The position numbers and the translations under genes are program-made. Positions 21,244 to 40,690 of a stretch of 64,000 nucleotides of DNA are shown one piece after another. The notes beneath the pieces are model-generated. The model saw only the letters and a program-made list of their open reading frames with translations. It had not been told where the DNA came from and searched no databases. Source of the stretch: Haloarcula taiwanensis (lineage in GTDB: Archaea > Halobacteriota > Halobacteria > Halobacteriales > Haloarculaceae); the NCBI GenBank assembly GCA_002844335.1, contig CP019154.1:1364001-1428000 (forward strand), read 5' to 3'. How positions within the stretch are numbered: the stretch's first letter is position 1; the number at the start of each line of letters is the position of its first letter.

Positions 21244-21855
21244 TTACTCGAAGTGACTGACCGACTTCTCGTACTCTTCAGCAGCCTTGTCCCAGTCGAC
21301 GACCTCGAAGAAGGCGTCGATGAAGTCACCGCGGGCGGGACCGTAGTCGTAGTAATAGGAGTGCTCCCAGACGTCGAGCGCGAGGATGGGATGGGAGCCC
21401 CAGAGTGCGCCCTGGTCGTGCTTGTCGACCGGCACGTTGCGCAGTTGCTTGGCAACGGGGTCGTACACGAGCAGCGCCCAGCCGCCGGCGGCAGATGCGG
21501 CGGCTTCGAACTCGCCTTTCCAGCCTTCGTAAGAGCCGAAGTCCTCCTCGATGCGGTCACGGAGGGCACCCTCCGGCTCACCGCCGCCGTTGGGGTCCAT
21601 GTTCTCCCAGAACAGCGTGTGGAGATAGTGCCCACAGCCGTTGTGGGTGACGTTGCCCATCGCAGCAGCGCTCGAGCCGAAGTCACCGGACTCGCGGTTC
21701 TCGGCGAGCGTCTCCTCGGCCGATTCGAGGCCGTTTACGTACCCCTGGTGGTGGGTGTCGTGGTGCCAGGTGAGCACCTGCTCGGAGATGTGTGGCTCCA
21801 GTGCGTCGTAGTCGTACGGGAGCGGTGGCAGTTCGGGATTTGAGTGTTCGGACAT
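21244..21855 (-). CDS. sod: Superoxide dismutase, Mn/Fe type
   Basis: The 203-residue enzyme shows the four metal ligands: His in LTWHHDTHHQGYV (about 30), His in HTLFWENM (about 79) and the Asp and His of LALDVWEHSYYYDYG (about 160-165). The second-sphere residues MGNVTHNGCGHYLH and GGWALLVYDP are also present. Haloarchaeal enzymes of this type are manganese-dependent and remove superoxide in the cytosol. The gene has a good ribosome binding site (GGAGG, 21865-21869) and a palindromic AT box (21897-21906). It precedes photolyase downstream on the same strand, a pairing known from halophiles. Confidence 0.95.
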   Translation of the reverse strand: MSEHSNPELPPLPYDYDALEPHISEQVLTWHHDTHHQGYVNGLESAEETLAENRESGDFGSSAAAMGNVTHNGCGHYLHTLFWENMDPNGGGEPEGALRDRIEEDFGSYEGWKGEFEAAASAAGGWALLVYDPVAKQLRNVPVDKHDQGALWGSHPILALDVWEHSYYYDYGPARGDFIDAFFEVVDWDKAAEEYEKSVSHFE

Positions 21856-21864
21856 ATGAAAACG

Positions 21865-21869
21865 CCTCC
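21865..21869 (-). promoter_or_regulatory. Shine-Dalgarno site of sod
   Basis: GGAGG on the minus strand ends nine bases before the sod ATG. It stands out because many genes here appear leaderless and lack such a site, so sod mRNA probably has a short leader. Confidence 0.6.
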
Positions 21870-21896
21870 ATCAATATCTGTCGCGCGGCTGCCTGT

Positions 21897-21906
21897 TAAA
21901 CGTTTA
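21897..21906 (-). promoter_or_regulatory. Palindromic TATA-like box TAAACGTTTA upstream of sod
   Basis: The ten-base palindrome TAAACGTTTA lies 42-51 bases before the sod start. It could act as TATA element with a transcription start about 25 bases downstream, which would leave a leader of roughly 20 bases containing the GGAGG. Confidence 0.5.
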
Positions 21907-22037
21907 GGAGCCATTTGGTAGCACTAGACAAGGACAGCGAGACAGAGCGGTGACGGCCCGTGGCAGAGACGCTATCGAGCGCCTTCGTTTCGCGTGTAAG
22001 CGCCCGGGAGAGTTCAGCAAAGCAGAACGAAGCCGCC

Positions 22038-23435
22038 CTAGTCGTCTCCTCTGGCCTGCTCGAACATCGCGAGGGCTTGCTCGCGTCGCTCACTGTGGTC
22101 GACAACTGGGTCCGGGTACTCCGGCGCAGCGTTGCGCCGTTGTGTGAGCGAGCACTCGTTCCAGTCGTGGATAACTTCTGGCGCAGCGTCCCGTAACTCC
22201 GGGACGTACTCCTTGATGTACTCGGCGCTCGGGTCGTAGTCTTCACCCTGTGTCATCGGATTGAAGATGCGGAAGTAGGGCTGTGCGTCGGTCCCCGTTG
22301 AGGCTGCCCACTGCCAGCCGCCGTTGTCGTTGGCCGTGTCGTGGTCGACCAGTTTCTCCCGGAACCACTCGTAGCCGTGCCGCCAGTCGATGAGTAGGTC
22401 CTTGGTGAGGAAGGAGGCGACGATCATCCGGACGCGGTTGTGCATGTAGGCTTCCTCCCGGAGCTGTCGCATTCCGGCGTCGACGATGGGATAGCCCGTC
22501 TCGCCGTCTTTCCAGGCCTGCAACAGCTCTTCGTCGTTTTCCCACTCTATTGGATTCTCGTAGGACTTGTAGTTCGAACTGACGACGTGGGGATGGGCAA
22601 ACAGTACTTGCGTGTAAAACTCTCGCCAGGCCAGCTGGGACTGGAACTCACGGACGGACTCGCGACGGTCGCCGCCGGTCCCCTCCTTGGCGTCCTGCGT
22701 GCGGTCGTACACCTCGCGAATACCGATGGTACCGAACTTCAGATGAGCCGAGAGCCGGGACGTGCACTCGTCAGCCGGGAAGTCCCGGCGCTCCTCGTAC
22801 TCGTAGACGTTCTCGTCGAGGAAGTCATTGAGCAGGGCGCGCGCTTCATCGGTTCCCGCCGCTGGCACGTCCGCTTCCGGTTCCTCGAAGCCGAGGTCGG
22901 CCAGTGTCGGGAGCGTATCGCCGTCGACGTCGGCCAGTTCGTCGGCTGACGGCGGCTCATAGGGAGCCGCCTTCTCGCGGTCGTGCCATTTCCGGCCAAA
23001 GTAGGTGAAGACGCTGTAGGGGTCGCCGTCGTTCGTCGTAATCTCACCGGGTTCGTGCAACACGGCGTTCTGGACGGCCTCGCGGGCCACGTCCGCATCG
23101 TCGAGGGCTTGCCGGACGGCCGCGTCACGTTCCCGTGCGAGCCCGGAGTAATCCTTGCCCCAGGTGACTTTTTCGGCGCCGTACTCGGCTGCCAGCTCTG
23201 GCAAAACGGAGGTGGGGTCGCCCTCAGCTACAATCAGGTCACTGCCGCGGTCGCGGTACCACTCGCGCAAACTGTCGAGCGCGTCCAGCATGAACACGAC
23301 CCGTGGTGGGCCAGCGTGGTCGAGCACGGCCCTGTCGAAGACGAACACCGGGACAACCCGGTCGGACGGTGTCGCCGCGGCGAGGCCAGCATTGTCCGTC
23401 GGCCGGAGGTCACGGCGATGCCAGTGGAGACGCAT
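22038..23435 (-). CDS. phr: Deoxyribodipyrimidine photolyase
   Basis: From the ATG at 23435 (MRLHWHRRDLRPTDNAGLAA) the protein has 465 residues. The N-terminal Rossmann domain for the antenna cofactor is followed by the FAD-binding helical domain with QLAWREFYTQVL, TGYPIVDAGMRQLREEAYMH and NRVRMIVASFLTKDLLIDWR. The C-terminal VIHDWNECSLTQRRNAAPEYPDPVVDH-type region is typical of class I CPD photolyases. It repairs UV-made pyrimidine dimers using blue light. A longer frame up to 23930 is antisense to the enoyl-CoA hydratase gene and is rejected as start. Together with sod upstream it forms a light and oxygen defence pair. Confidence 0.93.
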   Translation of the reverse strand: MRLHWHRRDLRPTDNAGLAAATPSDRVVPVFVFDRAVLDHAGPPRVVFMLDALDSLREWYRDRGSDLIVAEGDPTSVLPELAAEYGAEKVTWGKDYSGLARERDAAVRQALDDADVAREAVQNAVLHEPGEITTNDGDPYSVFTYFGRKWHDREKAAPYEPPSADELADVDGDTLPTLADLGFEEPEADVPAAGTDEARALLNDFLDENVYEYEERRDFPADECTSRLSAHLKFGTIGIREVYDRTQDAKEGTGGDRRESVREFQSQLAWREFYTQVLFAHPHVVSSNYKSYENPIEWENDEELLQAWKDGETGYPIVDAGMRQLREEAYMHNRVRMIVASFLTKDLLIDWRHGYEWFREKLVDHDTANDNGGWQWAASTGTDAQPYFRIFNPMTQGEDYDPSAEYIKEYVPELRDAAPEVIHDWNECSLTQRRNAAPEYPDPVVDHSERREQALAMFEQARGDD

Positions 23436-23541
23436 ACGTAGTACACGGACCAGCCCGGCCAAAAGGTACTGCCCAACGATGTTGGTCTGGCAGGCGCTGA
23501 CGGACACCACTGTTATCTTGCCGCCGGTCGAGGGCCAACGT

Positions 23542-24336
23542 ATGGAAGACGCGACCGTGACGCTGTCTGTTGACGACGGAATCGCCACAGTAACGCTGAA
23601 CCAGCCGGAGTCGCGGAACGCCCTGTCGGCAGAGTTGGCCGACGCACTCACCGCGCAGTTCGAAGCAGTGATGGACAGCGACGCCCGGTGTGTCGTACTG
23701 GAGGGTGCGGGACCGGCGTTTTGCGCTGGCGGAGATATCAATGCGATGTTACAGGGCGTGAAACACGACCGACCGCCGGCCACGCAGGTCGAACTGGTGG
23801 TTTCGTCGCTCCACGAAGCGATTCGGACCGTCCATAGCTGTCCGCTCCCGGTCGTCGCAAAAATCGACGGCCCCGCCTTCGGTGCCGGCGCAGGACTCGC
23901 GCTGGCCTGTGATATACAGATCGCAAGCACTGCCGGCCAGATCGGCTTTGGCTTCCGGCAGGTCGGACTGGCGTGTGACTCCGGCGTCTCCTATTTCCTT
24001 CCACGTATCGTCGGCCCGAACAAGGCCAAAGACCTCCTGTTTACCGGCGAACTACTGGATGCTGCGGCGGCCGAGGAACTCGGGCTGTTTACCCGGGTGT
24101 TCGACGCAGAGACGTTCGAGTCGGAGTTTTCGGCGCTTGTCGCGGATATCGCCGCTGGACCGACGGTCGCACTCGGGCACGCCAAGCGGCTGGTCAACCG
24201 AAGCCTGGACAGTTCGCTGGAACAGGCACTCGAAAACGAAGCCACCGCGCAGGGTGTCGCGTTCACGACTGCCGATCACGAGGAAGGGACGACCGCGTTC
24301 GTCGAGAAACGCGACCCGGAGTTCGAGGGCCAGTAA
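23542..24336 (+). CDS. Enoyl-CoA hydratase/isomerase family protein
   Basis: The 264-residue crotonase-fold protein starts at the ATG at 23542 (MEDATVTLSVDDGIATVTLN). It has ARCVVLEGAGPAFCAGGDIN (first oxyanion-hole segment) and KIDGPAFGAGAGLALACDIQ (second segment), then FRQVGLACDSGVSYFLPRIV. The position of the first catalytic Glu of hydratases is occupied by FRQVGLACDSG, as in several isomerase or less-defined members, so hydration activity is not certain. It is probably part of fatty acid or amino acid breakdown. The upstream ORF extension overlaps photolyase antisense and is not used. Confidence 0.85.
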   Translation: MEDATVTLSVDDGIATVTLNQPESRNALSAELADALTAQFEAVMDSDARCVVLEGAGPAFCAGGDINAMLQGVKHDRPPATQVELVVSSLHEAIRTVHSCPLPVVAKIDGPAFGAGAGLALACDIQIASTAGQIGFGFRQVGLACDSGVSYFLPRIVGPNKAKDLLFTGELLDAAAAEELGLFTRVFDAETFESEFSALVADIAAGPTVALGHAKRLVNRSLDSSLEQALENEATAQGVAFTTADHEEGTTAFVEKRDPEFEGQ

Positions 24337-25889: not shown

Positions 25890-27227
25890 ATGGAACCACT
25901 GCGTGGTGACGGGACGACGGTTGGTGAGACAACGGTCGTCGCACGCGGGTGTCGCCTCGACGATGCACCGGTGCGAGCGGTACTGGAGACAGACGCTCGC
26001 CCCCGGTTCTTCTGGGCGGCCGGTACAGAATCAATCGCAGCCCGCGGGAGCGCGGCGACTGTGACTGCCGACGGGCAGTCGCGGTTCGACGACGTTCGGA
26101 CAGCGCTCGAAGCGCTGTTCGATGACTGCTCCGTTCCCGACAGCCTCCCGAGCATCGCTCGACCGCGAGCGTTCGGTGGGTTCGCTTTCCACAACGGAAC
26201 ACACGAAGGGGAGGACTCTCCCTGGGATGGGTTCCCAAGCGCGGCGTTTTTTCTCCCCGAGATACAGGTGACAAGGAGAGACGACGACGCCTGGCTCACG
26301 GCGATTGCGACAGGTCCCGAGGCCGCGACCGAAGCTGAGACGCTACTGGGTGAGTGGCGCGACAGGCTAGCCACAGACACCGAACGCGAGCCGGGCACCC
26401 CACCGGGAATTTCACACCGGAAGCGCACGCCAACACAAGACGGCTGGCGCGAGCAGGTGTCGGCCGCCATCGCAAGCGTCGACTGCGGCGACCTCCAGAA
26501 GGTCGTCCTCGCACAGAGTCTCAGGGTCGCGCTGGAGACCGACCTGTCGGTCCCCGACGTGATGGCGCGGCTGTCCCGGACCTATCCGGACTGCTACCGG
26601 TTCATGCTGTCGCCCGAGGCCGGCGGCACCTTCTTCGGGGCCACGCCGGAGCGGCTGGTCTCGGTCCGCGGGCGCACCGTCAGGACAGAGGCGCTCGCCG
26701 GCTCGACGGGCCGGGGCGACACGCCCGCCGAGGACGAGTGGCTCGCCGCCGAACTCCTCGATAGCGAGAAGGACCGCCACGAGCAGAAGCTCGTCGCCGA
26801 CGCGATACGCGACCAGCTGGAGCCGTTCGCCTCGACGGTCCGCATCGGCGACCGAACGGTCCGCCGGCTCGCCACGGTCCAGCACCTGCGCACGTCGATA
26901 ACGGCCGAACTCGACGACGACGAGCACGTCCTCTCACTTGTCGAGGCGCTCCACCCGACGCCGGCCGTCGGCGGCCTGCCGCCGGACGCCGCGCTGCGGA
27001 CGATACGCGAGACTGAGGCGTTCGACCGCGGCTGGTACGCCGCCCCTATCGGCTGGGTCGACGCCGCCGGCAACGGGACTTTCGCCGTCGGCATCCGCTC
27101 GGCCGTCGCCACGGAGCAGAAGACGACCCTCTTTGCGGGCGCGGGCATCGTCGCCGACAGCGACCCCGACCGCGAGTGGGACGAGGTCCAGCTCAAGTAC
27201 CGGCCGATTCTGGACGAACTGGAATGA
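25890..27227 (+). CDS. menF: Isochorismate synthase
   Basis: The product has 445 residues from the ATG at 25890. The C-terminal chorismate-binding domain is clear: QKVVLAQSLRVALETDLSVP, GTFFGATPERLVSVRGRTVR, TEALAGSTGRGDTP, HLRTSITAEL, LHPTPAVGGLPPDAALRTIR and GWYAAPIGWVDAAGNGTFAV. It turns chorismate into isochorismate, the first step of menaquinone synthesis. Its 3' end overlaps menD by four bases. A GTG at 25866 would add eight residues; the ATG is preferred but either is possible. Confidence 0.92.
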   Translation: MEPLRGDGTTVGETTVVARGCRLDDAPVRAVLETDARPRFFWAAGTESIAARGSAATVTADGQSRFDDVRTALEALFDDCSVPDSLPSIARPRAFGGFAFHNGTHEGEDSPWDGFPSAAFFLPEIQVTRRDDDAWLTAIATGPEAATEAETLLGEWRDRLATDTEREPGTPPGISHRKRTPTQDGWREQVSAAIASVDCGDLQKVVLAQSLRVALETDLSVPDVMARLSRTYPDCYRFMLSPEAGGTFFGATPERLVSVRGRTVRTEALAGSTGRGDTPAEDEWLAAELLDSEKDRHEQKLVADAIRDQLEPFASTVRIGDRTVRRLATVQHLRTSITAELDDDEHVLSLVEALHPTPAVGGLPPDAALRTIRETEAFDRGWYAAPIGWVDAAGNGTFAVGIRSAVATEQKTTLFAGAGIVADSDPDREWDEVQLKYRPILDELE

Positions 27228-29002
27228 CCGCGCCGAACGTCAACACGCTGTGGGCGGAGACACTCGTTTCCGAACTCGTCGCCGGCGGCGTCGACGCAGC
27301 GTGTCTCTCGCCCGGCAGCCGCTCGACGCCGCTGACGGTGGCCTTCGCCGAACACCCCGAGGTCGAGGTGTTCTCCCACCTCGACGAGCGCTCGGCGGCC
27401 TTCTTCGCGCTGGGCCGGGCCCGCCGGACCGGCGAGCCGACGCCGCTGGTCTGTACCTCGGGAACTGCGGCCGCGAACTACCACCCGGCAGTCATCGAGG
27501 CGAACCAGTCAGGCGTCCCGCTGCTCCTGTTGACGGCGGACCGACCGCCGGAGCTCATCGACAGCGGCGCGAACCAGACCGTCGACCAGGAGAAACTCTA
27601 CGGCGATGCCGTCCGGTGGTATCGGGACATGCCCGAACCCGAGGCCGAGCCCCGGAAGATGCGGATGCTCCGGACCACGGCGGCCCGTGCGCTCACCGAA
27701 AGCACCGGCGCTGACCCGGGCCCGGTCCACCTGAACTGTCGGTTCCGGAAGCCGCTGGAACCGACGCCGACGCCCGCGGACGATCCGGCCGGCGTCCCGG
27801 ACGACTGGGCGGGCGGCGACGACGCGGCCGAAGCCGGCCGCGACGGCCCGTTCGTCTCGACCAGCGAGGGCGTCGCCGAACCGGACGAGGAGACGGTGCG
27901 CCGCGTTCGAGCGGCGATCCGGACCGCCGAACGGGGCCTCATCGTCGCCGGGCCGGCCGACCAGGGGCTCGGTGCCGCCTCGCTGGAGCGACTGGCGTCG
28001 GCGACGGGCTTCCCCGTCCTCGCGGACCCGCTGTCGGACCTGCGGTTCGGCCCCCACGTCGACCGCCTCGACGTGCCGGTCTGTGGCGGCTACGACGGCT
28101 ATCTCGGCAGCGGCGGCGTCGAGGAGTGGGGCGACCCCGACGTGGTCGTCCGCTTTGGCGCGTCACCGACCTCGAAGCCGCTGCGACATTACCTCCGTGA
28201 CGCCGACTGCCGGCAGTTCGTCGTCGACCCGAGCGGCGGCTGGCCGGAGGCCGAATTCACGGCGACAGACCTGCTCGTCGCCGACTCCGACGCTACCGCG
28301 GACGCGCTCGCGGCGGAGCCGCTGGGTGGCGGTTCGGAGTCGTGGCGCGAGCGGTTCGCCGGGGCGGAACGGGTCCACTGGGCGGCCGTCGACGAAACGG
28401 TCGCCGAAACCTACTGGGAGGGCGGCGTTCTCGCGGACGTGGCCGCGCTGGCCCCGGACCCAGCCACGCTGTTCGTCTCCAACAGCATGCCGGTGCGGGA
28501 CGTGGACCGCTTCGGGCGGCCCCGCGACGCCGACCTGACCGTGCTGGGCAACCGCGGGGCCAGCGGCATCGACGGCATCACGTCGACGGCGCTCGGGGCC
28601 GGCAGCGCGACGGCGGACCCGCTCGTGCTCGTCACCGGCGACCTGGCATACTACCACGACATGAACGGCCTGCTCGCGCTCGGGCGCTGTGGCGTGGACG
28701 CGACGGTCGTCCTCGTCAACAACGACGGCGGCGGCATCTTCCACATGCTCCCAATCGAGGACCACCCCACCTTTGAAGACCAGTTTCGGACGCCACACGG
28801 TCTCGATTTCGAGCCGACAGAGGCGCTCTATTCGCTTGAGTTCGAGCGGGTGGCCGACCGCCGGGCGTTCCGCGAGCGGTTCGGCGAGTCAGTCCGGAGC
28901 GATGGGACACAGGTCATCGAGGTCCAGTTCGATGCCGGCGACAGCCACGCAGTCAGAGACCGGCTTGCCGAACAGGTCGCCGAGGCCCTCGCCGGCGACT
29001 GA
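27224..29002 (+). CDS. menD: SEPHCHC synthase (MenD)
   Basis: This 592-residue thiamine-diphosphate enzyme starts MTAPNVNTLWAETLVSELVA and shows the catalytic-Glu region SHLDERSAAFFALG, the domain-1 motif TSGTAANYHPAVIEA-like (CTSGTAAANYHPAVIEANQS) and the ThDP-binding GDLAYYHDMNGLLAL with VVLVNNDGGGIFHMLP. It joins 2-oxoglutarate to isochorismate, giving 2-succinyl-5-enolpyruvyl-6-hydroxy-3-cyclohexene-1-carboxylate. ATGA overlap with menF shows translational coupling. Length is near the usual 550-600. The frame opening at 27176 lies within menF and is not used. Confidence 0.95.
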   Translation: MTAPNVNTLWAETLVSELVAGGVDAACLSPGSRSTPLTVAFAEHPEVEVFSHLDERSAAFFALGRARRTGEPTPLVCTSGTAAANYHPAVIEANQSGVPLLLLTADRPPELIDSGANQTVDQEKLYGDAVRWYRDMPEPEAEPRKMRMLRTTAARALTESTGADPGPVHLNCRFRKPLEPTPTPADDPAGVPDDWAGGDDAAEAGRDGPFVSTSEGVAEPDEETVRRVRAAIRTAERGLIVAGPADQGLGAASLERLASATGFPVLADPLSDLRFGPHVDRLDVPVCGGYDGYLGSGGVEEWGDPDVVVRFGASPTSKPLRHYLRDADCRQFVVDPSGGWPEAEFTATDLLVADSDATADALAAEPLGGGSESWRERFAGAERVHWAAVDETVAETYWEGGVLADVAALAPDPATLFVSNSMPVRDVDRFGRPRDADLTVLGNRGASGIDGITSTALGAGSATADPLVLVTGDLAYYHDMNGLLALGRCGVDATVVLVNNDGGGIFHMLPIEDHPTFEDQFRTPHGLDFEPTEALYSLEFERVADRRAFRERFGESVRSDGTQVIEVQFDAGDSHAVRDRLAEQVAEALAGD

Positions 29003-29006
29003 TTTT

Positions 29007-29960
29007 TCAGAGCCGCAACACCGACGCTGTCAACAGCGAGAGTCCGAACGGGAGCCACGTCCCCGACAGCGCGAGCGCCCCAATGAGCGAGAGCGCGCTG
29101 ATGTTCAAGACCACCAGCAACACCGCCGTCGTCAGGCTCCAGCTCCCAAATACCATAATCGCAATCGTGGGCTCGGACTGGAGGTAGCCGACCATGAAGA
29201 GGGTACAGGCCCCGATTGTCAGGTTGACCCACAGGGGGAACGCCGGCAACAGTGCGCTGAACAGCATCACCGGATAGAGGGCGAACGTGATGGCAAACAG
29301 CGTCAGCCCCCGGCCGGTCGGCATCTCCAGAAGCGACCCGCGGGACGGCGTGTCGGTCTGGCGAACGGAGTACGTGGCCGACGAACTCCATGTGGCCTCG
29401 CCGCCGGCATTGTCGCTGAAATCGCTAGTCGCAGCAGCCCCGGAGCGACGGGTGGAACCTGCGTTCGACGCGGCCGCCGTTCCGCTGGTCGGATCGGTCG
29501 ACTGTTCGTCGCTCGACGACGCATCGGTGTCGGTCGTCGAGCGGTCGGCTCTGTCTTCGGCGACGCGCTCCCTTGCAGCCCGTTCTCGTTGTTCTCGCTC
29601 CCGGGCGCTTGTCCGGGACGTGCCCTGACCAGCGCTTGCCTCGGTCCGGTCGCTACCTGACGGAGATCCGCCATAGCCCGCCCGCCGTGCCGCTTCGGCC
29701 ACGTCACTGCTGTGGGCGTCTGCTATATTGCTCTCGCCCGCAACGTAGGCGTCGTGACCCAGCCGGTCGTATCGCGCCCGCTCGTCCTCGTCGGTGAGCA
29801 CGTCCCGGGCTTCGATGAGCCGCTGTGTCGCCTCGCCGGCGTCAGCAGCGTCGCTCACGTCGGGGTGTGTCTCTTTCAGTCGTTCCCGATAGGCCGTTTC
29901 GATGGCCGCCGTCGACGCGTCAGTCGGGACGCCCAGTATCTCGTAGAACGTCTCGCTCAT
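29007..29960 (-). CDS. DnaJ-domain membrane protein
   Basis: The 317-residue protein starts at 29960 with a J domain: FYEILGVPTDASTAAIETAY, the HPD loop in KETHPDVSDAAD, and ARYDRLGHDAYV. A long Ser/Thr/Arg/Glu-rich disordered linker follows (about 85-215), and the C-terminus has three to four membrane helices (LTLFAITFALYPVMLFSALL, LWVNLTIGACTLFMVGYL, AIMVFGSWSLTTAVLLVVLN, LSLIGALALSGTWLPFGLSL). It could recruit DnaK to the membrane face. The gene is convergent with menD, four bases from its stop. Confidence 0.85.
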   Translation of the reverse strand: MSETFYEILGVPTDASTAAIETAYRERLKETHPDVSDAADAGEATQRLIEARDVLTDEDERARYDRLGHDAYVAGESNIADAHSSDVAEAARRAGYGGSPSGSDRTEASAGQGTSRTSAREREQRERAARERVAEDRADRSTTDTDASSSDEQSTDPTSGTAAASNAGSTRRSGAAATSDFSDNAGGEATWSSSATYSVRQTDTPSRGSLLEMPTGRGLTLFAITFALYPVMLFSALLPAFPLWVNLTIGACTLFMVGYLQSEPTIAIMVFGSWSLTTAVLLVVLNISALSLIGALALSGTWLPFGLSLLTASVLRL

Positions 29961-29994
29961 GGCGGCCGAACCACCCGTCCGCGGCTCTGGTCGG

Positions 29995-30252
29995 TCACTC
30001 CTCCTCGACGCCTCCGTCAGTCTCCGCGCCACGGCCGGACGACTCGCGGTCCCTCGCGAGGCGTTCGAGCGCCGCCGCGATGCGTTCGAGCGTGAACACG
30101 AACCGCACGATTAGATACAGAACCCAGGGGACAACGGCCACTAGCAGGCCGAGGAGAATCTGCTGGACGATAAGCAGGCTGTACAGGACGATAGCCACGG
30201 AGAGGCCTGCGAGTATCCCTATCACCGCCTTGCTGTTCGGGTTGGAGGGCAT
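29995..30252 (-). CDS. Small two-helix membrane protein upstream of the DnaJ-type gene
   Basis: The 85-residue product starts MPSNPNSKAVIGILAGLSVA, has two hydrophobic segments (about 8-28 and 32-52), then a charged coiled-coil-like tail (ERIAAALERLARDRESSGRG) and an acidic end. A GTG five codons upstream (30267) is an alternative start. It precedes the DnaJ-type gene on the same strand with a gap of about 35 bases, so the two may work together at the membrane. Function is unknown. Confidence 0.65.
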   Translation of the reverse strand: MPSNPNSKAVIGILAGLSVAIVLYSLLIVQQILLGLLVAVVPWVLYLIVRFVFTLERIAAALERLARDRESSGRGAETDGGVEEE

Positions 30253-30341
30253 CGCTAGCCCGTTCACGCCTGCGGAACCAAAGCGTTTGCTCCCGCGTGG
30301 ATACGAGGAATCTTTTTGCGAGGGCCGTCCCGAGCCACGGT

Positions 30342-31301
30342 ATGGTCTCTGAGCTATTCGACCCGGCCCGCTGGACCGCCGTCGACCGGTTCGACTTCAC
30401 CGATATCACCTACCACCGCTCGACGGAGACGGGCGCAGTCCGCATCGCCTTCGACCGGCCCGAGAAGCGCAACGCCTTCCGCCCGGAGACGGTCGACGAA
30501 CTCGCGACGGCGCTGGACCACGCCAAGCGCCAGACCGACGTTGGCTGTGTCCTCCTGACCGGGAACGGCCCCTCTGAGAAGGACGGGGGCTGGGCCTTCT
30601 GTTCCGGCGGGGACCAGTCCATCCGGGGCGAGAGCGGGTACGAGTATCAGGCGGACGAAGATAGCGAGTCGCGGAGCGACTCGGAGCGGTCGAGCGGGGA
30701 GTCCGGCGACCCGCGAGACGTCGGCGACCCGGACGCCCCCGAGAACGTCGGCCGCCTCCACATCCTCGAAGTCCAGCGCCAGATCCGTCACATTCCAAAG
30801 CCCGTGGTCGCCGTCGTCCCGGGGTGGGCCGTCGGCGGTGGCCACTCCCTGCACGTCGTCTGTGACCTCACGCTCGCCAGCGAGGAGCACGCGAAGTTCC
30901 TCCAGACGGACCCCGACGTGGGCAGTTTCGACGGTGGCTTCGGCTCGGCGTACCTCGCCCGACAGGTGGGCCAGAAGAAGGCCCGCGAGGTGTTCTTCCT
31001 CGGCAAGACCTACAGCGGCGAGGAAGCCGCCGAGATGGGGATGGTCAACGAAGTCGTGCCACACGAAGACCTCGAAGACACCGCTATCGAGTGGGCCGAG
31101 CGGATGAACGAGAAGTCGCCGACGGCGATGCGGATGCTGAAGTACGCCTTCAACCTCGACTCGGACGGGATGGTCGGCCAGCAGGTGTTCGCCGGCGAGG
31201 CGACCCGGCTGGCCTATATGACCGACGAAGCACAGGAGGGTCGTGACGCCTTCAACGAGGGCCGGGACCCGGACTTCGACGACGTGCCCTGGCACTACTG
31301 A
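30342..31301 (+). CDS. menB: 1,4-dihydroxy-2-naphthoyl-CoA synthase
   Basis: The 319-residue crotonase-fold enzyme closes the second ring of the naphthoquinone. Key segments are WAFCSGGDQS (oxyanion hole), VPGWAVGGGHSLHVVCDLTL, TDPDVGSFDGGFGSAYLARQ and KKAREVFFLGKTYSGEEAAE. Asp190 sits where actinobacterial bicarbonate-independent MenB has its catalytic Asp and E. coli MenB has Gly, so this looks like a type II enzyme (inference from remembered alignments). An acidic Ser/Asp insert at about 107-139 is longer than in bacteria. The ATG at 30342 (MVSELFDPARW) is preferred over an earlier in-frame start. Confidence 0.93.
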   Translation: MVSELFDPARWTAVDRFDFTDITYHRSTETGAVRIAFDRPEKRNAFRPETVDELATALDHAKRQTDVGCVLLTGNGPSEKDGGWAFCSGGDQSIRGESGYEYQADEDSESRSDSERSSGESGDPRDVGDPDAPENVGRLHILEVQRQIRHIPKPVVAVVPGWAVGGGHSLHVVCDLTLASEEHAKFLQTDPDVGSFDGGFGSAYLARQVGQKKAREVFFLGKTYSGEEAAEMGMVNEVVPHEDLEDTAIEWAERMNEKSPTAMRMLKYAFNLDSDGMVGQQVFAGEATRLAYMTDEAQEGRDAFNEGRDPDFDDVPWHY

Positions 31302-31328
31302 GCCGACGGAACGGAAGGAACTGCGCGC

Positions 31329-31679
31329 TCAGTCCTCGTAGGCCAGCGTCATGACCCACTGCGAGAAAGTATCGTCGTGGGGGTCGACTTCTTCATCGCC
31401 GATAAACGGCGAGAGCTGGTCACCGGCCATCAGGAGCGAGAAATCCAGATCGCGGGCCGCAGGCGTCAGGTAGTACGTGTTGTGGCCATCGTACACCGTC
31501 TCCTCACGCTGAATGAGGTCCTTCTCGAACAGGGACTCGACGATGCGACTCCCCTTTCGCGAGGAGACGTCGAGTTCCTTCCAGAAGTCGCTCTGGTGGA
31601 TGCCACCGGACTCCCGAATCAGTTCAAGCCCGGCCCGCTCACCATCAGAAAGGTCCGCCTCCGACGCTGCTGAACTCAT
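31329..31679 (-). CDS. Winged-helix regulator (MarR/Lrp-type fold)
   Basis: The 116-residue protein has an N-terminal winged helix: DGERAGLELIRESGGIHQSD, FWKELDVSSRKGSRIVESLF, EKDLIQREETVYDGHNTYYL. A C-terminal acidic segment follows (SPFIGDEEVDPHDDTFSQWV). This is typical of small haloarchaeal regulators. It sits between menB and the NRDE gene, convergent with menB, so it is a candidate regulator of the menaquinone genes, though no operator is visible. Confidence 0.75.
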   Translation of the reverse strand: MSSAASEADLSDGERAGLELIRESGGIHQSDFWKELDVSSRKGSRIVESLFEKDLIQREETVYDGHNTYYLTPAARDLDFSLLMAGDQLSPFIGDEEVDPHDDTFSQWVMTLAYED

Positions 31680-31706
31680 GTATTACTCATACCGTGAGTC
31701 GGCCGC

Positions 31707-32444
31707 TTAAATCTGACCTTCGACCGGGCGGTACGGCGTCCGACATGGCGGCCCGGCCGCGTGCTGATACTCGTGGTCGGCACCCAGTGTGATGAGCGAC
31801 GACGACCGCGTCCCGAATCCGTCGCCGTGGACGCAGACGCCGTACTCGTGGTCGCTGATGGTTTCGCCTGCCCGGTCAATCCATTCGCCGGCGGACTCGC
31901 CCGGTTCCGGTCGCATGGCCTCGTGTAGCCGCGCCGCGTTGTTCGCCTGCTCCTCGCCGGCGTCGGGCCGACGCGATGGAATCCGGTAGTCGCCGTCCGC
32001 GCCGACGTTGACGACGACGTGAACCCCGGGCTGGAAGTTCCGGACCGCGAGCTGCCCGTCCCATTCCAGCAGCACGGCGGCGTTCTCGTCTGCCAGCAGA
32101 AGATTGAATCCCGAGTATTCGGCCTCTCTGGTCGCCTGTTCGACAGCGCGGGCGGCTGATTCGGCCGTTTCGTGGCTCAGCGCGTCCCGGACGAGCAGGC
32201 CGCGTGAGCGGTCGCCGGCAAGATCGGTGTCGATCCAGCGGTTCGTCACCGCCGCTAGCAGGCCGTGCTCGTTGTAACCTATCCACGTGCCGTCAGCTTC
32301 TTGGTCGGCGGGCGCGACGACGCGACTCCCCCAGTGGCGCTGTCGCGGCGGCTGTGACGGCCTGTCGAGTCGCTCGTCGCGGTTCGCTGCGACCGCGACG
32401 GGCGTGCCGTCGAAGACCTGCCACGCGAGGACGATTGTACACAC
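31707..32444 (-). CDS. NRDE family protein (TANGO2-like)
   Basis: The 245-residue product starts MCTIVLAWQVFDGTPVAVAA and has the name-giving NRDE in AANRDERLDRPS, then WIGYNEHGLLAAVTNRW, GFNLLLADENAAVLLEWDG and a C-terminal FGTRSSSLITLG. Cys2 right after the start Met resembles an Ntn-hydrolase nucleophile. Eukaryotic TANGO2 has been tied to heme or lipid handling; the archaeal role is unknown. It lies between the small regulator and menE on the minus strand. Confidence 0.88.
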   Translation of the reverse strand: MCTIVLAWQVFDGTPVAVAANRDERLDRPSQPPRQRHWGSRVVAPADQEADGTWIGYNEHGLLAAVTNRWIDTDLAGDRSRGLLVRDALSHETAESAARAVEQATREAEYSGFNLLLADENAAVLLEWDGQLAVRNFQPGVHVVVNVGADGDYRIPSRRPDAGEEQANNAARLHEAMRPEPGESAGEWIDRAGETISDHEYGVCVHGDGFGTRSSSLITLGADHEYQHAAGPPCRTPYRPVEGQI

Positions 32445-32498
32445 GGGCTTCTATACGCTATCGACGTAGAAAACCGCTTGGCTGTGGCCCCCAGTCCG

Positions 32499-33995
32499 CT
32501 ATGCCGATTCGTCCGATTCGCTGGCAGTCCTGAGCCGCGACCGGACGGCCTCGCGGTCGACGGTGCCCGAGGGCGTCCGCGGGAGCCCGTCGACGACCCG
32601 GACCGTCTTCGGGACCTCGTAGGCCGCGAGCCGCCCGGCGCAGTGCTCGCGGACGGCCGCGGGCGTCACGTCCCCGACGACCAGCGCGGCGACCCGCTGG
32701 CCCCACTCCTCGTCCGGCAGACCCACCACGGCCGCGTCCTCGACGGCGCGGTGGTCCCGAACCGCCGCGGCGACCGTGCCCGCGTCGACGTTCTCGCCGC
32801 CGGTGACGATACGGTCGTCGACGCGGCCCTCGACCCAGAGGCGGCCGTCGCCGTCGCGGTAGCCCAGGTCGCCTGTCCGGAAGCCGAACTCGCCGAACGC
32901 CGCGCCGTCGCCGCTTAGATAGCCCGACGTCACTGTGGGACCGTCGACGACTATCTCGCCGCGTTCACCGGGATCGCAGGGCTCCCCGTCCGAAACGACC
33001 GTCACGTCGGTGAACGCGAGCGGCTGGCCGACGGTGCCGGCATAGTCGAAGGCCGTCTCCGGCCGGGCCGTCGCTATCTGGGACGCCGTCTCGGTCATCC
33101 CGTAGGTGGGACAGACCGGGACGCCCCGCTCCCGACAGCGGTCGACGAGCGCCTCGGTCGCCGGCCCGCCGCCGAGCAGGACGAACCGGAGCGCGGACGG
33201 CGGTTCCCAGCCCGCATCGAGCAATCGCGAGAGCATCGTCGGCACCAGCGAGACGCCCGTCGCCCCGTGCTCCGCGATGACCCGCTGGGTCGCGTCGGCG
33301 TCGAACGACCGCTGGACGACGACCGCCGTGCCGTACAGCGCGCTCCGGACGAACGGGGCCAGCCCGCCCATGTGGTAGGTCGGCAGGCAGACCAGCCAGC
33401 GGTCCGTCGGCAGGACGCCCAGCCGGTAGGAGGACGCGACGGCGCTGGCGACGAGGTTGCCGACCGTCAGCCGGACGCCCTTGGGTTCGCTCGTGGTCCC
33501 CGAGGTGAAGACGACGAGCTGGGTGTCCGTCCGGGAGAGGGCCGCCGGCGTCACGTCGGACTCCCGGTCGGCACTCGCTCCGTCCGGCTGGACCGGGAGG
33601 TCTGCCACCGAGACGACCGGGCACGTCGCCGCTTCCGCGGCGAGGTCGCGCGTCGACGGCTCACAGACCAGCAGGTCCGCCTCGACGGTCGCACACTGTG
33701 CCCGGAGCGTCGCCGCGTCGAGTTCGACGTTCAGCGGCGCGAGCGTCGCGCCCAGTCGCATCGTTGCGAACAGGAGCGTCCCGGTTTCGGGTCGGGTCGG
33801 CAGGAGTGTCGCGACGGTTGGGTCTGCGTCGAGTCGCCGGTCGAAGTCGGCGGCCACCGCGTCGACGGCGGCGTCGAGTTCGCGGTATGTCGCCTCGTTG
33901 CCTGCGTCCGCCGCAACCATCGCCGTCCGGTTTGGCGTGGCGCTCGCCCGGTGGGTCACGAGGTCTTTCGTCGGCCAGTCGATTGGGTCACGCAT
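32499..33995 (-). CDS. menE: o-Succinylbenzoate-CoA ligase
   Basis: The 498-residue adenylate-forming enzyme has TQLVVFTSGTTSEPKGVRL (phosphate-binding loop), CPTYGMTETASQIATARPET (A5) and FRTGDLGYRDGDGRLWVEGR (A7-A8). The A10 motif near the end reads PRTPSGTVDREAV: the usual catalytic Lys after Gly is Thr (residue 478). The acyl-CoA ligase at 36125 keeps this Lys (TATGKVQ), so the change is specific to this gene. It activates o-succinylbenzoate with CoA. Start overlaps menC's stop by eight bases. The order menA-menC-menE on one strand makes the name secure. Confidence 0.92.
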   Translation of the reverse strand: MRDPIDWPTKDLVTHRASATPNRTAMVAADAGNEATYRELDAAVDAVAADFDRRLDADPTVATLLPTRPETGTLLFATMRLGATLAPLNVELDAATLRAQCATVEADLLVCEPSTRDLAAEAATCPVVSVADLPVQPDGASADRESDVTPAALSRTDTQLVVFTSGTTSEPKGVRLTVGNLVASAVASSYRLGVLPTDRWLVCLPTYHMGGLAPFVRSALYGTAVVVQRSFDADATQRVIAEHGATGVSLVPTMLSRLLDAGWEPPSALRFVLLGGGPATEALVDRCRERGVPVCPTYGMTETASQIATARPETAFDYAGTVGQPLAFTDVTVVSDGEPCDPGERGEIVVDGPTVTSGYLSGDGAAFGEFGFRTGDLGYRDGDGRLWVEGRVDDRIVTGGENVDAGTVAAAVRDHRAVEDAAVVGLPDEEWGQRVAALVVGDVTPAAVREHCAGRLAAYEVPKTVRVVDGLPRTPSGTVDREAVRSRLRTASESDESA

Positions 33996-35034
33996 CGGTT
34001 TCCACCTCTGCTGGATTGATGCCGAGGCCGGTCGACTGGGGGACCGACATCGCGCCGTCGGTCACCGTCGTCGGGTCCGGCGCGAGGTCGACGGCCAGTC
34101 TGTCGCCGGTCGCCAGACCGCAGGCCGAAACGTCAGGAATCGCGGCGGCGACGTGTAGCGCCGCGAGGCGGGCGACGACCGCGTCGATAGTCGTCGTGAC
34201 GACCGGCTCGACGCCCTGCTCGCGGGCGCGCATCGCCAGCGTGTGGGCGTTGCCCGGGCCGCCCAGCACCATCGGTTTCAGTATCAACACGTCGGCTGCG
34301 TCGGCGTCGAGCACGCTGTCGACCCGACGGTCGACGAGCGACTCATCAAGTGCGACGCCGACGCCATAGCCCCGAAGCTTGGCGTGGCCGGTGAGGTCGT
34401 CGGCCGGGAGCGGCTGTTCGACGTAGGCCACGTCCAGCGGGGCGAGCCGGTCGATGGCGTCTGCGGCCTTCTCGCGGGACCACGCGCCGTTGGCGTCGGC
34501 CCGCAGGGTCACGTCGTCGCCCACGCGCTCACGGACGGTCCGAACGCGCGCGACATCTTCGTCAACGGTTCGCTTCCCGACCTTGACCTTACAGCAGTCG
34601 TAGCCGGCCGCGACCGCCCGCTCGACGGCGTCGGCGGTTTCGGTCGGGGACCCGTCGCCGACTGTCGCGTTGACCGGGACGCGATTACAGTGCCTGTCGG
34701 AGTCGAACCACCGGTATAGCGGCACGCCATCGGCCCTGGCGTCGGCGTCCAGCAGCGCGGTCGCGAAGCCGTGGCGGGCGGCGGGAACCGATGCGGCGTC
34801 AAGCGAGAGGAGAATGTCTGTGTGCCCGCCGTCGGCCGCGACTGTGGTCGCGTCATCGAGCGCGCGCTGACAGTCGTCGGCGGACTCAGTCCAGCCCGGA
34901 AGCGGCGTGGCTTCGCCGACACCCGTTTCGCCGCGGTGGTCGTAGCGGACGACGAACCCTGAACGCTGGCTGATAGTCTCGCGGGCGGTGGCAAGCGGAC
35001 TCGACAGCGGGAGCGAGAACGAGTCGACCTTCAT
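33988..35034 (-). CDS. menC: o-Succinylbenzoate synthase (enolase superfamily)
   Basis: The 348-residue product shows the enolase-superfamily catalytic set: KVKVGKR (Lys-x-Lys, about 147-153), LRADANGAW (first metal Asp), AYVEQPL (Glu) and GVALDESLVD (Asp-Glu), with ILKPMVLGGPGNA carrying the second Lys. It dehydrates SHCHC to o-succinylbenzoate. Length is typical (about 340). ATGA overlap with menA upstream and eight-base overlap with menE show one transcript menA-menC-menE. Confidence 0.93.
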   Translation of the reverse strand: MKVDSFSLPLSSPLATARETISQRSGFVVRYDHRGETGVGEATPLPGWTESADDCQRALDDATTVAADGGHTDILLSLDAASVPAARHGFATALLDADARADGVPLYRWFDSDRHCNRVPVNATVGDGSPTETADAVERAVAAGYDCCKVKVGKRTVDEDVARVRTVRERVGDDVTLRADANGAWSREKAADAIDRLAPLDVAYVEQPLPADDLTGHAKLRGYGVGVALDESLVDRRVDSVLDADAADVLILKPMVLGGPGNAHTLAMRAREQGVEPVVTTTIDAVVARLAALHVAAAIPDVSACGLATGDRLAVDLAPDPTTVTDGAMSVPQSTGLGINPAEVETDA

Positions 35035-35990
35035 AGTAACTGTGGGATGGCGAGTCCCAGCGCGAACAGAACGGAGTGGGCGAACAGCGTCTGGCCGACC
35101 CGTTCAAGCGTCGGGTTCAGCGCGTCGCCGCTGGTCTGCGTGAGGACTGTTTTCGAAATCGTCGCCGCCAGTGGCAGGGTCAACAGCGGAGCCAGTGCCG
35201 GCAGCCCGTACTGGCCGTCAAGGGCGAACACGACCGGGACAGCGTAGGCCATCCCGACCAGCAGGAGAAATTCGACGCGGCTCCATCTGTAGCCCATGTA
35301 GACGGCCAAGGTCTTCTTGCCCGCGGCGCGGTCCGTCTCGCGGTCGCGGATGTTGTTGACGACGAGAATCGCGGTCGACAGGCCGGCCGCCGGGAGGCTC
35401 GCCGTGATAGCGGCGGCAGTGACTGACCCCGGCGGGAGTGTCATCGGGAACGTGCCGACGCCGCTTGCGCTCGCAACAGCCTGCACGTAATATGTGCCGG
35501 TGACCGCGATGACGCCAAAGTAAACGAACACGAACAGGTCGCCCAGACCGCGGTAGCCGTAAGGGAACGGACCACCGGTGTAGAGAATCCCGGCGGCGAT
35601 ACCCGAGAGGCCGACGACGACGATGGGAAGGCCGCCGACGGCAACGAGATAAATACCGATGACGACGGCGAGCCCGTAGGTCGCGATCATCGCTCGTTTG
35701 ACTTCGTCGGCGTCGATGAGGCCGCCAGCGGTCACTCGGGTGAACCCCTCGCGTTCGTCGGTGTCGGCCCCCTTCACCGCGTCGTAGTAGTCGTTCGCGA
35801 AGTTCGTTCCAATCTGGATGAGCAGCGCACCCACCAGCGCTGCGACTGCCGGCAATAGAGCGAAGACGCCGGCGTGGACTGCCAAGCCCATCCCGACGAT
35901 GACCGGCGCGGCCCCGGCAGGCAGTGTTTGTGGCCGCGCGGCCATCACCCACGCCTGCCGCTTCGAAACGTCCGCCGTCGCTGTACTCAT
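35031..35990 (-). CDS. menA: 1,4-dihydroxy-2-naphthoate polyprenyltransferase
   Basis: The 319-residue protein is a UbiA-family membrane prenyltransferase with about nine helices. It has the first Asp-rich motif in QIGTNFANDYYDAVKGADTD and the second in LVVNNIRDRETDRAAGKKTL. It attaches the polyprenyl chain to DHNA. It is the first gene of the minus-strand menACE operon; the start at 35990 (MSTATADVSKRQAWVMAARP) has a family-like N-terminus. A polyprenyl side chain such as MK-8 is known for haloarchaea, not shown here. Confidence 0.93.
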   Translation of the reverse strand: MSTATADVSKRQAWVMAARPQTLPAGAAPVIVGMGLAVHAGVFALLPAVAALVGALLIQIGTNFANDYYDAVKGADTDEREGFTRVTAGGLIDADEVKRAMIATYGLAVVIGIYLVAVGGLPIVVVGLSGIAAGILYTGGPFPYGYRGLGDLFVFVYFGVIAVTGTYYVQAVASASGVGTFPMTLPPGSVTAAAITASLPAAGLSTAILVVNNIRDRETDRAAGKKTLAVYMGYRWSRVEFLLLVGMAYAVPVVFALDGQYGLPALAPLLTLPLAATISKTVLTQTSGDALNPTLERVGQTLFAHSVLFALGLAIPQLL

Positions 35991-37901: not shown

Positions 37902-40148
37902 ATGACGCATATTGCTGACCCTATCCGTATTCTTCACGTCGACGATGAGCCGGGGTTTGCCGACATGACGGCAACGTTTCTCGAACGCGAGGACGACCGG
38001 ATAGACGTCCAGACTGCGACGAGTGCCACGGCGGGGCTGGAAACTCTGGCCGACACCGACATCGACTGTGTCGTCTCTGACTACGATATGCCCGAGCGGA
38101 ACGGCATCCAGTTCCTCGAAGCCGTTCGCGAGGAGTACAGGTCGCTTCCGTTCATTCTCTACACTGGCAAAGGGTCGGAGGAAATCGCAAGCGACGCTAT
38201 CTCGGCTGGTGTCACCGATTATTTGCAGAAAGAGAGCGGCACGGACCAGTACACGGTGCTGGCAAACAGAATCACGAACGCTGTGGAGTCCCAGCGAGTC
38301 AAGCGAGAGCGCAACCGCCAGCTTGACGCCATCGAGAGCGCAAAGGAGGGGATCAGCATCCTTGACGAGGACGGGCGGTTCATCTTTGTCAACGAAGCGT
38401 ACGCGGACCTCTACGGCTACGAGCCCGAGGAGATGCGGGGGGAGCACTGGGAACTGCTGTACCGGGATGAGGACATCCCGCGCATCTACGAGGACATCCT
38501 TCCGACTGTCGAAGAAAACGGCTACTGGACCGGGACGACGATGGGACTCCGTGCTGACGGGAGCACATTCACCGAGGACCACGTGCTCGCGATGACCGAC
38601 CACGGCGAGCTGGTCTGTACAGTCCGGGACCTCTCTGAAAGACAGGGCGACGAGCAGGAGCTGTCCCGAATCAAACGTGCGATGGACGAGGCACCCATCG
38701 GTATCGTGATCACCGGTCTCGAACAAGAAGGGACTCCGATAATCTACACCAACCGCCGGTTTCTGGAACTGACCGGCTACACAGAGTCGGAGGTACTCGG
38801 CCGAAACTGCCGGTTCCTGCAGGGCGAGGCGACAGAGTCCGAGCCGGTCGACGCAATGCGTGCGGCCATTGAAGCGGACGAGTCTGTGTCGGTCGAACTC
38901 CGGAACTACCGGAAAGACGGGACCCTGTTCTGGAATCAGGTGACTATCGCACCCGTGCGTGACGATGACGGAGCGGTCGTCAATTACGTCGGGTTCCAAC
39001 AGGATATCACCGAGCGGAAAGAACACGAACACCGCCTCAGAGCACTCAGTGAGTCGGTCCAAGACCTACTCCGGGCTGACACCCGCGAAACGGTGGCCGA
39101 GATCGGCGTCGAAACGGCGCGCACTGTCCTGGGGCTCGAAGCGAACACGATTCACCTCTACGACGAGGACGCACGGACTCTCGAACCGGTCGCCGCATCC
39201 GACGCGATATATGAGCTGATAGACGAGTTGCCGACCTTTACGCCCGGGGATAGCATTGCATGGCGCGTCTACGAGTCCGGCGATGCTCTCGCCGTCGACG
39301 ACGTCCATGCTGACCCGGACATCTACAACCCGGACACGCCGATCAAAAGCGAACTGTATCTTCCGCTTGGCGAGCATGGCATCCTGCTGGCCGGCTCGGA
39401 GACGGCCGCGGCGTTCGACCAGCGGGACGTCGTCCTCGGGGAGATTCTCGCCGGACACGTCACCAGCGCGCTCAAGCAGGTCGAAGGGACCGAACAGTTA
39501 CGTGACCGCGAACGGGCTCTCGAACAGCACAACGACCGGCTCGAATCGTTCACCAGCGTCGTCTCACACGACCTACGGAATCCGCTGAACGTCGCCCAAG
39601 GCCGACTGCAACTCGCACGCGAGCAGTGTGAGAGTGAGCATCTGGCCGCTGTCGAGCGAGCACACGAGCGGATGGACACGCTGCTAACTGATCTGCTCAC
39701 GCTGGCACAGGACGGTGATACCGTCACCGACCGCGAACCGGTCGCGCTCGCATCGCTCGCCGAAAACTGCTGGAAGACTGTCGAAACGGCCGATGCGACA
39801 CTCATCACCGATATCGACCGGACCGTGCTGGCAAACGAGAGCCGTCTGAAGCAGTTGTTCGAAAATCTCGTTCGGAATGCGGTCGAACACGCCGGAACGG
39901 ATGTGACCGTGCGGGTCGGGGCATTGGACGACGGGTTCTACGTCGCCGACGACGGCCCCGGTATCTCCGAAGACGAGCGAGAGACAGTGTTCGAAGCCGG
40001 CTACTCGACGAGCTCGGAGGGAACTGGGTTCGGGCTCAGTATCGCCCGGCAGGTCGCCTCGGCACACGGCTGGGAGCTCAGCGTTCGAGACAGTGCCGAT
40101 GGTGGCGCACGCTTCGAGATTACCGGCGTCTCGTTTTGTGATTCGTAG
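37902..40148 (+). CDS. Hybrid sensor histidine kinase: receiver-PAS-LOV/PAS-GAF-HisKA-HATPase
   Basis: The 748-residue protein has these domains: receiver at 1-125 (phosphoacceptor Asp60 in VVSDYDMPERNG); PAS at about 140-255; a second PAS with the LOV signature GRNCRFLQG (Cys303) at about 265-380, followed by NYRKDG, LFWNQ and VGFQQD, which supply the Asn, Asn and Gln that hold flavin in LOV domains; GAF at about 390-525; HisKA with His556 in VVSHDLRNPLN; and an ATPase with ENLVRNAVEHAG, DDGPGIS and GTGFGLSIARQVA. All parts look intact. The receiver-first order is common in haloarchaea. It has no membrane helix, so it senses inside the cell. Partner and output are unknown. Confidence 0.92.
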   Translation: MTHIADPIRILHVDDEPGFADMTATFLEREDDRIDVQTATSATAGLETLADTDIDCVVSDYDMPERNGIQFLEAVREEYRSLPFILYTGKGSEEIASDAISAGVTDYLQKESGTDQYTVLANRITNAVESQRVKRERNRQLDAIESAKEGISILDEDGRFIFVNEAYADLYGYEPEEMRGEHWELLYRDEDIPRIYEDILPTVEENGYWTGTTMGLRADGSTFTEDHVLAMTDHGELVCTVRDLSERQGDEQELSRIKRAMDEAPIGIVITGLEQEGTPIIYTNRRFLELTGYTESEVLGRNCRFLQGEATESEPVDAMRAAIEADESVSVELRNYRKDGTLFWNQVTIAPVRDDDGAVVNYVGFQQDITERKEHEHRLRALSESVQDLLRADTRETVAEIGVETARTVLGLEANTIHLYDEDARTLEPVAASDAIYELIDELPTFTPGDSIAWRVYESGDALAVDDVHADPDIYNPDTPIKSELYLPLGEHGILLAGSETAAAFDQRDVVLGEILAGHVTSALKQVEGTEQLRDRERALEQHNDRLESFTSVVSHDLRNPLNVAQGRLQLAREQCESEHLAAVERAHERMDTLLTDLLTLAQDGDTVTDREPVALASLAENCWKTVETADATLITDIDRTVLANESRLKQLFENLVRNAVEHAGTDVTVRVGALDDGFYVADDGPGISEDERETVFEAGYSTSSEGTGFGLSIARQVASAHGWELSVRDSADGGARFEITGVSFCDS

Positions 40149-40255: not shown

Positions 40256-40690
40256 TTAGTCTTCGAGCGCGTCGGCGATACGGTCAAGCGACCGTCGCAT
40301 GTCGTGGACTTCGTCCCGGAGCTTTCGCATCTCGCGCGTGAGCTCCTCGTTGTCGCTGCCGCCCGATTCCTCGTGCTGCCCTGGCGGGCCGCCGCCCATG
40401 CCGCCGGGACCGCCCGGACCGGGGCCGCCGGGGCCGCCGCCCATCATGCCGCCCATCATCTGCGCGAACGGGTTGCCGCCGCCCATGCCGCCGGGGCCGC
40501 CGCCACCGCCCATCATCTCTTCCATGCGCTCTTCGCGGCTCATCTCTTCGCCGTCGCCCTCGCCTTCTTCGCGCTCCTCGGCGCGCTGCTGTCGGATCTC
40601 TTCGACCCGCTCGCGGAAGGACTTCTCCTCGCCGCCGTCCTCGGTCGCATCCGCCGATTCGTCAGCGTTCTCAGGTTCATCGTCTGCCAT
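40256..40690 (-). CDS. Gly/Met/Pro-rich low-complexity protein with flanking charged helices
   Basis: The 144-residue protein has three parts. Residues 1-58 are acidic and helical (EEKSFRERVEEIRQQRAEER). Residues 59-107 are nearly all Gly, Met and Pro (EEMMGGGGGPGGMGGG, MMGGMMGGGPGGPGPGGPGG). Residues 108-144 are acidic then coiled-coil-like (NEELTREMRKLRDEVHDMRR). There are no Cys or catalytic motifs. The organisation suggests a scaffold or condensate-forming protein joined by coiled coils, but no function is known to me. It is convergent with the LOV kinase gene. Confidence 0.65.
   Translation of the reverse strand: MADDEPENADESADATEDGGEEKSFRERVEEIRQQRAEEREEGEGDGEEMSREERMEEMMGGGGGPGGMGGGNPFAQMMGGMMGGGPGGPGPGGPGGMGGGPPGQHEESGGSDNEELTREMRKLRDEVHDMRRSLDRIADALED

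Follow-up and report, generated by a model that had tools for sequence, protein, structure and literature searches.

The kinase and its gene neighbourhood

The window, i.e. the whole stretch of 64,000 nucleotides of Haloarcula taiwanensis DNA analysed here, contains on its forward strand a gene for a multidomain sensor histidine kinase, which is made up as follows.

37902-40148, + strand: open reading frame of a soluble histidine kinase of 748 amino acids with the architecture REC-PAS-LOV-GAF-HisKA-HATPase_c, delimited by the open frame, Pfam matches and orthologues that are 82-88% identical over their full length
37929-38249, + strand: N-terminal receiver, residues 10-116 (Pfam Response_reg, 2.3e-21)
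38325-38651, + strand: first PAS domain, residues about 142-250 (Pfam PAS_8)
38670-39035, + strand: LOV domain, residues about 257-378 (Pfam, NCBIfam, phmmer against PDB, AlphaFold and PDB fold matches)
39009-39083, + strand: long helix following the LOV core, residues about 370-394 (AlphaFold model, helix 132-156 of the construct)
39081-39473, + strand: GAF domain, residues 394-524 (Pfam GAF_2, 2.1e-15)
39543-39710, + strand: HisKA domain, residues 548-603 (Pfam HisKA, 2.5e-11), with the predicted phosphoacceptor His556 in SHDLRNP
39834-40124, + strand: HATPase_c domain, residues 645-741 (Pfam, 2.5e-21), with the N (NLVRNAV), G1 (DDGPGI) and G2 (GFGLS) boxes

The receiver, both PAS domains, GAF, HisKA and HATPase_c each exceed the curated cut-offs of Pfam, which labels the LOV region simply as PAS (residues 267-371). 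The protein carries the phosphoacceptor histidine and the N, G1 and G2 boxes that define a sensor histidine kinase of the HisKA type, and the catalytic residues of both the kinase core and the receiver (in the latter the acidic pair D14/D15, the predicted phosphoacceptor D60, T88 and K110) are intact and conserved. The original prediction of a LOV domain fused to a receiver, a further PAS domain, a GAF domain and an intact kinase core is borne out by the Pfam matches and motifs. The accompanying description of the protein as a “hybrid” kinase does not hold: because its sole receiver is N-terminal and Pfam finds no C-terminal receiver in the 748 residues, we reject classification as a classical hybrid histidine kinase. 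The first PAS domain was also considered as a second LOV domain and rejected, since inspection of its sequence found neither the LOV motif nor a Cys at the LOV position. No match to response-regulator families was found among the neighbouring genes covered by a non-exhaustive scan.

The kinase gene adjoins an acyl-CoA ligase-type (AMP-binding) gene and a menaquinone cluster, with menD, a MenE-like AMP-binding gene, menC and menA at 27176-35990. Of these, menC and menA are on the opposite strand to the kinase, and menD is 9 kb away from it. The order MenE-like gene, menC, menA, AMP-binding ligase, kinase and following genes is kept around the five named orthologues, from Haloarcula argentinensis, sebkhae, mannanilytica, vallismortis and japonica. 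Directly downstream of the kinase, on the opposite strand (40256-40690), is a gene for a short acidic protein rich in Gly, Met and Pro, which is 94-99% identical across five Haloarcula species and has no Pfam match.

A photolyase and a superoxide dismutase had been pointed out as sharing the window with the kinase. Both are present (photolyase at 22038-23930 and Fe/Mn superoxide dismutase at 21244-21855, both on the − strand), but being 14-19 kb distant, with unrelated genes (e.g. the menaquinone cluster) in between, they lend no support to light sensing. They are rejected as a functional link, the conserved direct neighbours of the kinase being the AMP-binding ligase and the men genes. Taken by themselves, the Fe/Mn superoxide dismutase and the adjoining photolyase, which is of the 8-HDF type (21244-23930, − strand), are likely to be a light/oxidative-stress pair.

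The LOV domain and its conservation

The signature of LOV photoreceptors is present in full, in four segments whose functional residues can be aligned with those of YtvA of Bacillus subtilis.

38799-38825, + strand: GRNCRFLQG, residues 300-308, with Cys303 (codon 38808-38810) aligned with YtvA Cys62
38904-38921, + strand: NYRKDG, residues 335-340, with Asn335 at the position of YtvA Asn94
38925-38939, + strand: LFWNQ, residues 342-346, with Asn345 at the position of YtvA Asn104
38985-39005, + strand: YVGFQQD, residues 362-368, with Gln366 at the position of YtvA Gln123

All four motifs are thus where they had been predicted, and the Cys, two Asn and Gln of LOV chemistry correspond one-to-one with those of the characterised protein, with which 58 of 126 aligned columns (46%) and the key pocket residues are identical. 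Judged from sequence, a signature of this kind lies far beyond what chance would produce. The published search pattern for LOV domains (PMC4844311) has a single match in the protein, at residues 284-303, the last of which is Cys303. YtvA is also the best sequence match in PDB (phmmer, E = 8.7e-35), with a YtvA-FixL fusion, Meiothermus LOV, Chloroflexus LOV, aureochrome and phototropin among the other top matches. The NCBIfam model of YtvA (NF052652) matches residues 257-389 with E = 5.8e-52; its score of 176.6 bits is below the whole-protein cutoff of 250, as the match is confined to the LOV half of the model (positions 2-134 of 243).

Structure prediction agrees with the sequence matches. An AlphaFold model, which is ligand-free, was built from 48 haloarchaeal sequences for a construct that begins at residue 239; it has a mean pLDDT of 89 and shows the structural elements expected of a LOV domain, followed by the long C-terminal helix, predicted to be the output helix leading into the GAF domain. 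It agrees with crystal structures of LOV domains to about 1 Å, and each of the 50 PDB fold matches listed is a LOV entry, with the best cores at 0.7-1.0 Å (3t50, Brucella LOV-HK, 0.7-1.0 Å; 1n9l, phototropin LOV1, 0.9 Å; 9vf7, Meiothermus LOV, 1.0-2.2 Å). That Cys303 would face the flavin C4a is suggested by the alignment together with this fold match.

Cys303, Asn302, Arg304, Gln307, Asn335 and Gln366 are invariant in the alignment of 48 haloarchaeal LOV sequences, and Asn345 is kept in 47, with Ser in the remaining one. As the 48 were collected by similarity to the kinase's own LOV domain, i.e. as close relatives, invariance of the Cys is in part a selection effect. Tyr362, which stands where YtvA has Phe119, is the same in 45 of the 48. 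Close matches, with identities of 78-100% over the LOV domain, are found in 13 genomes of the genus, including the source, in open frames of 753-774 amino acids. Every domain of the kinase that was tested is under purifying selection. In most pairs the LOV domain evolves somewhat faster than most of the other domains and is still constrained; with dN/dS of 0.10-0.22 against the five Haloarcula orthologues, along with conservation of the Cys, a decaying LOV domain can be rejected. More widely, a search of the family at E ≤ 1e-20 finds LOV relatives in 130 of 146 genomes. In a phylum-wide draw at 1e-25 all 63 matching genomes fall in the same order, from which nine genomes are listed that have no match at that threshold.

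The same genome encodes a second canonical LOV kinase (L002:586-2484, G000 C1:1729735-1730100), with the architecture REC-PAS-LOV-HisKA-HATPase_c, the motif GRNCRFLQG and a LOV domain 44% identical to that of the kinase at 37902-40148. On another contig, a 223-amino-acid open frame (L003:1453-2121, G000 C2:133303-133626) encodes a LOV-like PAS domain with Leu instead of Cys (GENLRLLQG) and several other LOV residues kept; no output domain was detected in this frame. Two weaker PAS matches (L004 and L005) are without the LOV motif. There are also four microbial rhodopsins (G000 C1 375232, 734309, 2108721 and 492027), which give the organism further ways of sensing or using light.

A proposed light switch and its alternatives

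Sequence, profile, fold and conservation evidence concur that the LOV domain is canonical and Cys-containing and belongs to a soluble histidine kinase, as had been predicted, and a reading of the protein as a putative blue-light-sensing kinase is well supported by these sequence comparisons and the model. We consider it highly probable that it is a canonical LOV blue-light receptor within a cytoplasmic haloarchaeal sensor histidine kinase, which would switch the kinase core by way of the C-terminal helix of the LOV domain and the GAF domain. By analogy with known LOV chemistry, FMN would occupy the LOV pocket, and blue light near 450 nm would lead to a thioadduct between Cys303 and the flavin C4a. 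Protonation of the flavin N5 would then reorient Gln366, and the change would travel from the LOV core along the long C-terminal helix and through the GAF domain to the HisKA/HATPase core, altering autophosphorylation at His556. The phosphoryl group would be expected to pass to the receiver of another protein or to the kinase's own N-terminal receiver, which could also serve as an input. Since PAS and GAF domains flank the LOV domain, light may be one of several inputs.

Among the alternatives, the one that fares best is that the domain binds flavin and is photochemically active, and yet acts in the cell mainly as a sensor of redox or flavin state, or as a scaffold, with light not the physiological signal. 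LOV proteins lacking the Cys can still signal through flavin reduction (PMC4682037), and the redox flavoprotein NifL was also matched in the profile search, more weakly than YtvA. The nearby menD, menC and menA offer a redox context, but given their strand and distance such a neighbourhood is weak evidence. Pure redox sensing would not need the adduct Cys that is strictly conserved in all 48 sequences, and the haloarchaeal habitat is strongly lit. We regard this explanation as unlikely. A further reading, in which Tyr362 diverts part of the photochemistry from the thioadduct to a flavin radical, seems to us quite improbable; were it true, these kinases would respond to both light and redox state, and the quinone genes close by might be linked to this role.

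A different route for the signal can also be envisaged from the domain order, as the receiver and a PAS domain lie upstream of the LOV domain, and the GAF domain separates it from the kinase core. Light might then bypass the GAF route and alter only the receiver or the dimer state, e.g. if phosphotransfer at the N-terminal receiver were gated. LOV kinases, however, usually couple the LOV domain to the kinase through C-terminal helices, and we give this arrangement very little credence. Least credible of all is an ordinary LOV-like PAS domain with no flavin bound, for which the presence of several PAS domains in the genome and the plain PAS label of Pfam could be cited, since the domain keeps every pocket residue checked, unlike L004 and L005 with their missing motif, and scores best to LOV proteins.

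Comparison with known LOV systems

As a candidate blue-light receptor, the kinase fits the known group of haloarchaeal LOV kinases without any departure, and its novelty is small. A 2014 survey by Losi and colleagues recorded 167 LOV proteins in archaea. Among those from Halobacteria about 30% have an HTH output, and the others are LOV kinases with RR, GAF and PAS units (PMC4844311). The present kinase shares with the latter the Cys-bearing LOV domain combined with REC, PAS and GAF domains and a kinase, and no difference between them is evident (PMC4844311). The role of blue light in LOV-bearing archaea was described there as unexplored, and for that reason a Haloarcula whose genome encodes just two canonical LOV proteins would make a practical test case. 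With the present kinase, the large and little-explored group of blue-light kinases of archaea gains one more well-supported member, whose gene neighbourhood is conserved across species of Haloarcula.

Literature searches found no study of a Haloarcula LOV kinase and no experimentally characterised close relative of the present LOV domain. Valle and colleagues (2025) reported on 28 LOV sequences of haloarchaea in Lake Diamante, most of them from histidine kinases with REC, PAS and GAF domains. Among these, ALovD-1, from Halonotius sp., binds FMN, absorbs at 446 nm, forms a 390-nm adduct and completes its photocycle in salt concentrations of up to 3 M (PMC12202551). ALovD-1 likewise comes from a haloarchaeal multi-PAS histidine kinase, its parent protein having three PAS domains. 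It belongs to group A, with Tyr for Phe in the LOV motif, whereas the present domain has the plain GRNCRFLQG and, in FWNQ, the group-B residue as defined in the same study (PMC12202551). Replacement of a flavin-side Phe by Trp or Tyr is on record for haloarchaeal LOV domains (PMC12202551), and Tyr362 probably corresponds to that position.

Among other LOV-related regulators of haloarchaea, Bat of Halobacterium and the Bat-like LOV-HTH proteins share PAS/LOV and GAF-associated domains with the kinase and differ in output, which is HTH_10 in the former and a kinase here. One of the loci analysed (L036) is such a LOV-BAT-HTH_10 protein; Bat of H. salinarum is without the LOV Cys (PMC4844311).

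Two bacterial systems are also close to the present kinase. YtvA has the key pocket residues in common with the present domain and differs in its basic residues (11 K and 3 R in YtvA against 3 K and 11 R here) and in having Phe119 in place of Tyr362; the output of YtvA is a STAS domain, not a histidine kinase. In Brucella abortus LOV-HK, whose structure (3t50) the model matches so closely, a LOV domain is likewise coupled to a histidine kinase, although this is of the HWE-type family and has neither an N-terminal receiver nor a GAF domain.
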